Positions 57,460-58,611 of a stretch of 64,000 nucleotides of DNA are shown here, piece by piece. This DNA comes from Ignavibacteria bacterium (GTDB lineage: Bacteria; Bacteroidota; Ignavibacteria; Tepidaquicellales; Tepidaquicellaceae). The notes beneath the pieces were generated by a model, which saw only the letters and a program-made list of their open reading frames with translations, did no database searches and was not told the origin of the DNA. The DNA is taken from contig DATAJP010000003.1 of the NCBI GenBank assembly GCA_036262055.1, positions 124,001-188,000 of the forward strand. The letters run 5' to 3'. The stretch's first letter is position 1. Each line of letters begins with the position of its first letter. The translations under genes and the position numbers were made by a program.

Positions 57460-57464
57460 TTTTA

Positions 57465-57538
57465 TCCCCCTTTGGAGGGGGAAACAGGGGGAGGATTTAA
57501 GTGATGTCCTCCTCCTAAATCCTCCTCTCCCAAAGGGA
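57465..57538. repeat. Inverted pair of CCCCTTTGG...GGAGGATTT repeats
   Basis: The left copy starts TCCCCCTTTGGAGGGGGA and ends GGGGGAGGATTT. The right copy, inverted, is AAATCCTCCTCTCCC then AAAGGGA (57517-57538). Each is palindromic inside. Together they can form one long cruciform just after the macroglobulin stop, possibly ending its transcript. Confidence 0.65.
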
Positions 57539-57887: not shown

Positions 57888-57948
57888 CGAAATTCGTATT
57901 TTAAGTAAATAATGATTTTTATAAGTTTGTGAAATAAATATAGTTTAC

Positions 57949-58533
57949 GCCGTTGTTGGTGTTTTCACCAACAACCAATTTTCTTAAAGTAAATGAACAA
58001 TCTTGTATTTTTCACTGCTACAATTCTTGAATGGAAACCATTGCTCACACTTGATAAATATAAAAATATAATTATTAGCAGCTTAAAATATCTTGTTGAG
58101 AACAATAAAATAAAAATATATGCGTTTGTCATAATGCCGAATCATATTCATTTAATATGGAAAATTAAAAATGAATTAAATTATTCGGACATTCAACGTG
58201 ATTTTTTAAAATACACCTCTCAAATGATTAAATTTGATTTAGAGAAAACAAATGTTGATTTGTTAAATGAATTTTATGTGGATGCTAAAGATAGGAAATA
58301 TCAAATTTGGGAACGAAATCCTTTGTCTATTGAATTAATCTCTAAAGAAATAACAGAACAAAAAATCAATTATATTCATAAAAATCCTTTAATGCCAAAA
58401 TGGAATTTAGCTGAAGAATCGCATTTGTATAAATATGCTTCAACAAAATATTATCTCGAAGGAACAGATGAGTTTGGAATTTTAGAAAACTATATGAATT
58501 ATGACGGTTGTTGGTGAAAACACCAACAACGGC
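57949..58533 (+). mobile_element. REP-flanked RAYT-type transposon unit (585 bp)
   Basis: The transposase gene is bounded by two 28-base sequences that are exact reverse complements (57949-57976 and 58506-58533). Each is itself a hairpin: stem GTTGTTGGTG/CACCAACAAC with loop TTTT or AAAA, plus outer GCC or GGC. This is the architecture of REP sequences next to REP-associated tyrosine transposases. The right hairpin begins within the last four codons of the gene and includes its stop. No target duplication is apparent from inspection of the flanks. Confidence 0.85.
57993..58517 (+). CDS. REP-associated tyrosine transposase (Y1_Tnp, IS200-like)
   Basis: 174 residues of the HUH single-strand transposase family. 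The HUH motif is MPNHIHLIW (H51, H53), and the catalytic Tyr127 lies in INYIHKNPLMPKW, the pattern typical of RAYTs. The N-terminal beta strand VFFTATILEWKP fits too. Such enzymes cut REP hairpins. This gene sits between inverted REP hairpins and its last four residues DGCW are encoded by one of them. Reading frame intact, so it may still be active. Confidence 0.9.
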   Translation: MNNLVFFTATILEWKPLLTLDKYKNIIISSLKYLVENNKIKIYAFVIMPNHIHLIWKIKNELNYSDIQRDFLKYTSQMIKFDLEKTNVDLLNEFYVDAKDRKYQIWERNPLSIELISKEITEQKINYIHKNPLMPKWNLAEESHLYKYASTKYYLEGTDEFGILENYMNYDGCW

Positions 58534-58611
58534 GATGATGATTTTGGTTTGATGGAATAGACACGGTTAGATTTTATGGTCTGTTTATTAGCAAAATAAA
58601 TAAAAATCAAT

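Follow-up and report, generated by a model that had tools for sequence, protein, structure and literature searches.

A probable REPtron in an Ignavibacteria bacterium and the mobile, sometimes protein-coding, REP hairpins of its lineage

The window, which is the whole 64,000-nucleotide stretch of Ignavibacteria DNA analysed here, contains a 587-bp unit in which a gene for a Y1/HUH protein lies between two hairpins (Table 1; genomes and loci are cited below by our own G and L handles). The ends of the unit are an inverted repeat pair of 29 nt each, 100% complementary and 529 nt apart, and each arm is a perfect 10-bp hairpin, GTTGTTGGTG-N4-CACCAACAAC, with a 4-nt loop. When up to three mismatches were allowed, the only matches to an arm within the window were the two flanking copies themselves, with 0 expected (100 shuffles). 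An earlier note, made from the letters alone, had described two exact inverted hairpin arms around a unit at 57949–58533; the stems and their exact complementarity hold, but the arms are 29 rather than 28 nt and the unit extends one base further at each end (57948–58534). The same note had placed the last codons and the stop of the gene inside the right hairpin. This is correct for glycine, cysteine, tryptophan and the stop: gene and right arm share 12 nt (GGT TGT TGG TGA), with which the gene ends and the arm opens, so that the arm begins 9 nt ahead of the stop codon and 12 nt ahead of the gene end. The Asp codon that had been counted with them (58503–58505) lies outside the arm. Elsewhere in the window, a sub-threshold Rfam match to whalefall-1 (57462–57496; 33 bits versus a gathering threshold of 37, E = 3.5 × 10−5) falls in a stretch that resembles several other places of the genome.

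Table 1. Features of the unit in window coordinates
Feature	Coordinates	Strand	Description
Left REP	57948..57976	+	GCC foot and hairpin 57952–57975, loop TTTT; ends 17 nt before the start codon
RAYT gene	57993..58517	+	174-aa ORF, Y1/HUH, H51-I-H53 and Y127 intact
Right REP	58506..58534	-	Exact inverse of the left REP; hairpin 58507–58530, loop AAAA; GGC foot on the 3′ side
Gene/right REP overlap	58506..58517	+	G172, C173, W174 and TGA stop

As the earlier note had supposed, the gene product belongs to the REP-associated tyrosine transposases (RAYTs), which are credited with dispersing REPs, small DNA hairpins, through bacterial genomes. It matches Pfam Y1_Tnp (1.1 × 10−6) and the NCBIfam profile REP_Tyr_transpos (8.8 × 10−22; 77.6 bits, just under the cut-off of 80). 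With a 10-member profile, Escherichia coli TnpA_REP (4er8) is the only solved relative (E = 0.0018), and the same structure is the top fold match (E = 5.6 × 10−8) of an AlphaFold model with a mean pLDDT of 87, followed by IS200/IS605 transposases. H51-I-H53 and Y127 are invariant among 10 aligned proteins, in agreement with the intact HUH/Y1 transposase noted before, and the alignment gives the motifs NHIH, WE and YIHKNP. The tail block, residues 171–174, is modelled with low confidence (mean pLDDT 65). The gene is single copy in the 2.87-Mb genome, which also encodes one paralogous Y1 transposase of 36% identity (L016, G000:C3:499010-502522).

The hairpin is a dispersed REP. Its core, GTTGGTG-N4-CACCAAC, occurs at 14 places in the genome (reversed control, 0), and although the query required only 7 bp of stem, all 14 copies have the full 10-bp stem. 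The outer stem is compensated in two of them (CTT/AAG in L014 and TTT/AAA in L012), and 12 of the 14, both flanking copies counted, have the GTTGTTGGTG stem in full together with an identical loop and the GGC foot. Several solitary copies lie 2–9 nt past stop codons. Apart from the gene-flanking pair and two same-orientation copies 488 nt apart, the REPs of this genome are solitary, and it has no short-spaced inverted REP pairs of the REPIN or BIME kind; REP arrays are present in one relative (G018). Copy numbers of the same type of hairpin range from several to about 20 in species that belong to one genus of the order and to a few genera of the family; the other relatives compared have almost none. 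Because two genomes (G033 and G036) carry REPs with no match to the RAYT gene, gene and REP are not strictly coupled.

The arrangement of hairpin, gene and inverted hairpin is a family rule. Oppositely oriented hairpins stand on either side of the gene in the intact relatives G018, G008, G037, G029, G030, G039, G034 and G032 (51–62% identity). An inverted repeat of at least 12 nt, often itself a hairpin, spans the gene in most of the best 80 homologs from genome contigs, which belong to Bacteroidota (Pontibacter, Roseivirga, Mucilaginibacter, Cyclobacteriaceae and Chitinophagaceae) and Ignavibacteria. The stems of the homologs vary in parallel on both sides (TTGTTGGTG.., TTGTTGGAG.., GGTTCGTG..). 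At one locus of G006 (L049), a RAYT of 43% identity is found between two blocks (1320–1434 and 2006–2120) of a very different hairpin family (CATTCCCAAACTCCTGTTTGGGAATG), and there the blocks on both sides share one orientation.

REPs have moved in this lineage, because one gene has filled and empty alleles in related genomes and another carries an insert that its 29 orthologs lack. The latter is anmK (PF03702, 1.2 × 10−90) of the genome of the window, in which a REP (L011) is read in frame and accounts for 15 extra residues, SVVGENTNNGGDREV, absent from 29 of 29 aligned orthologs. The former encodes a type 9 (T9SS) sorting tail, with VVGDNTNNG in G038 and G030 and without it in G036, where the flanking DNA is closely similar; the empty allele reads EAGG against VVGDNTNNGEI in the filled one, and residues were therefore either replaced or lost locally when the hairpin inserted. 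No general target-site duplication was found, as expected under a single-strand mechanism: among 90 simple hairpins, one direct repeat of at least 9 nt within 25 nt was seen versus 0.45 expected from mismatched-pair controls. The anmK REP (L011 1480-1545, G000:C3:225430) is bordered by a 9-nt direct repeat, TAGAGAAGT, and removal of the insert with one TAGAGAAGT copy gives ILEKSKNIPKED, near the IIKKSKNIPKED of the ortholog; this repeat may be a duplication made by insertion or may be due to chance.

REPs are also in frame within pyrE (L017, TIGR01367), rsmI (L012, TIGR00096) and, at the same turn, three further T9SS sorting domains (L158, L168 and L169; TIGR04183). All REPs in recognized genes read V-V-G-[ED]-N-T-N-N-G, with the variant FVGENTNKDG in rsmI. 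Five of the six frames are open through the hairpin, yet one frame is used in seven genes; under even frame use this would be unlikely, with 0.2^7 as our own estimate, which assumes independence and an unbiased choice of real genes. Hairpin-spanning open reading frames in other frames (L020, L025, L029, L036, L147, L174 and others) were dismissed by inspection as spurious or as lying upstream of the true start. Five REPs in four genes of five species (L142, L178, L158, L168 and L169) encode VVG[D/E]NTNNG at one shared position, the last turn of T9SS sorting domains, and this recurrence may reflect independent insertion or recombination between tails. At another locus (L044 1186-1833, G038:C296), the reading frame of a truncated RAYT crosses a REP and continues as a T9SS sorting tail (..IIFFVVGDASLNTNNGGDPSTTIKYSIP..).

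Not only hairpins but also gene-bearing elements of the family are at variable sites in relatives, with the GCC foot as the left junction. At two loci of G029 the left end coincides exactly with the REP foot, and congeners are empty at these sites (slashes mark the junctions): L068 begins ..ATGGGAACAAATT/CGCCGTCG, at which G032, G038, G030 and G036 read ..GGGAACAAATT/ACATTATTTTACATATAA and G041 nearly so, and L069 begins ..CAGTTT/CGCCG, the segment being absent from G032. In both, the extra DNA extends 1.2–2 kb beyond the right REP and closes with a repeat, about 28 and 46 nt long, of the sequence adjoining the insertion on its left, which implies more than one event or read-through capture. 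The two G029 RAYT genes are about 71% identical at the DNA level. G016 carries at least seven MITE-like copies, 88–99% identical, in which the two hairpins are longer and 50–59 codons remain of the RAYT C terminus; their left flanks all diverge from the foot outward, and the right flank is common to some. In G008 and G018 the position of the gene is non-syntenic with the window, and a flank search of the relatives for an empty site of the window unit itself gave no syntenic site past the upstream gene. The earlier note had staked its reading against a hairpin that occurs once, relatives whose genes are unflanked and a lack of empty sites; instead, the genome has 14 core copies, solitary ones included, inverted REPs flank the gene in the family, and empty sites were found in relatives (anmK orthologs, the T9SS-tail gene and the G029 loci).

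A side observation concerns G016 (L064, G016:C14:5000-23000), in which a RAYT-derived MITE-like copy lies about 290–350 nt upstream of a gene for a Cas9-like protein (1,529 amino acids), followed by a cas1-like gene and an array with a 76-nt period. The stretch from the MITE to cas9 has duplicates next to two further MITE copies, and the L064 region has no Rfam match.

We conclude with a probability of roughly 0.85 that the unit is a REPtron, that is, a single-copy RAYT bracketed by two inverted cognate REPs, of an Ignavibacteria/Bacteroidota lineage, because of the RAYT profile and fold, the dispersed REP, the conserved layout with paired stem changes and the mobility of the REPs. Counting against this reading, the window REP has neither the canonical GT[AG]G foot nor the imperfect stem of group 2 REPs, and some genomes (G033 and G036) carry REPs but no close RAYT. 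By analogy with TnpA_REP and IS200/IS605 transposases (PMC8266576), the RAYT would recognize the extruded hairpin as single-stranded DNA, binding one of its strands, the foot would choose the cut and Y127 would nick beside it, and rejoining of the nicked REP strand elsewhere would give rise to solitary REPs; cleavage, strand choice and target choice by this protein are thus predictions from better-known enzymes.

A doubtful but serious alternative is that the unit is an autonomous insertion sequence rather than a domesticated RAYT, with the hairpins as its ends, transposition of the whole, MITE-like derivatives and solitary hairpins as remnants. The internally deleted copies of G016 with their differing left flanks, the two G029 loci that start at the foot next to empty congeners and the non-syntenic positions in G008 and G018 argue for it. 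However, the gene is present once against 14 REPs, the divergence of the two G029 genes means that they are not recent copies of each other, the overrun beyond the right REP leaves no exact unit, and variable sites may equally be explained by horizontal transfer or loss. Far less credible, and the least probable of the readings considered, is that the hairpins are transcription terminators or RNA-stabilizing structures independent of the transposase. The solitary copies just after stop codons would suit such a role, but no T-run follows the hairpin, hairpins of the same type enclose the gene in homologs from across Bacteroidota and the hairpins match no Rfam family; this explanation was rejected, being largely excluded by the copies inside anmK, pyrE, rsmI and T9SS-tail genes.

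The overlap of gene and right REP is specific to the window copy and reflects no family constraint. Among the intact relatives and the best 80 homologs, the right arm never begins before the end of the stop codon in any other homolog whose inverted repeat is detectable, and where it comes closest, it begins directly at the stop codon or a few nucleotides later. As a conserved feature the overlap is ruled out, since the stop of the relatives precedes the right hairpin, and the sequences suggest that it is best explained as an accident. One relative (L035) reads ATG CTT GTA TGA where the window has ATG AAT TAT GAC GGT TGT TGG TGA, and from this single comparison, at 62–63% identity, a shift of the frame by one base, which placed the stop within the REP, is perhaps the simplest account. 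The stop would normally stand just ahead of the right REP; the frame may have been lost here through a one-base indel, after which translation would enter the REP for a few codons and end at its built-in TGA. It is very improbable that the overlap is functional, whether by tying the C terminus to its substrate through an in-frame REP or by letting the protein bind or regulate its own mRNA. The overlap itself is real, and in E. coli TnpA_REP the C-terminal tail touches the foot and regulates activity (PMC8266576), but only three tail residues are involved here, and the non-coding left REP is identical. The earlier view of a meaningful minimal arrangement that locks the protein to its substrate is therefore not supported, because the overlap is unique to this copy, the tail is modelled with low confidence and deletion of the last 13 residues of the E. 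coli protein raised its activity (PMC8266576).

The overlap is thus a lineage-specific curiosity, and the coding REPs together with the filled and empty sites are the better finding; REPtrons are a known kind of unit, and the interest lies in the in-frame coding REPs. RAYTs are generally regarded as domesticated. In Ignavibacteria, filled sites that align with empty ones, derivatives formed by deletion and REPs within genes make REP mobility testable in one clade, perhaps together with the mobility of gene-bearing elements, and the in-frame insertions illustrate how proteins can gain peptide loops from a selfish hairpin. The published view is that there is 'no evidence of tnpAREP mobility' (PMC8266576). 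Contrary to it, we tentatively raise the possibility, which we hold to be rather unlikely as a whole, that REPs of this family act as mobile hairpins that code for protein and spread VVG(E/D)NTNNG in one preferred sense frame, in enzymes and repeatedly in the same T9SS-tail turn, and that RAYT genes move with the REPs.

Compared with known systems, IS200/IS605 elements (IS608 and ISDra2) share the Y1/HUH fold and hairpin substrates. We consider the closest likeness to be the RAYT/REP REPtron (Nunvar et al. 2010, PMC2817692; TnpA_REP 4er8), with a Y1/HUH protein, a single-copy gene between two inverted REPs, dispersed REPs and a REP near the stop codon; rayt 3′ ends within repeat arrays have been reported before (PMC2817692). 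Unlike in that system, the foot is GCCG in the window (CCCG in several relatives) without GT[AG]G, the stem is perfect without a bulge, the right REP overlaps the coding end and the REPs are mostly single. The perfect stem also separates the window REP from group 2 REPs, and the GT[AG]G tetranucleotide 5′ of the hairpin, typical of REPs although not required in subclass 2.6, is absent in the window REPs. The protein possibly belongs to TnpA_Y1 subclass 2.6, or RAYT group 5 (Quentin et al. 2018, PMC6006769), which is mainly from Bacteroidetes and shares NHIH, YIHxNP, conserved serines in the C-terminal part and 'atypical' flanking structures without GT[AG]G; compared by tabulated motifs only, the subclass has NH[LIV]H, WQ and YIH[QN]NP against NHIH, WE and YIHKNP here. 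Returning to IS200/IS605, the transpos_IS200 profile gives the 174-aa protein 20.5 bits against a cut-off of 55. The REPs in genes resemble Rickettsia palindromic elements and related repeats (PMC3733652), small palindromes in frame in ordinary genes, including REPs that give open reading frames their stop codons and '3′ov' repeats that overlap tyrosine transposase genes; they differ from these in hairpin family, constant sense frame and recurrence at one turn of T9SS sorting domains. The ends of the window unit are exact inverse copies, and this distinguishes it from IS200/IS605. In the latter, the hairpins at the ends generally lie subterminally, and one is not the inverse of the other.
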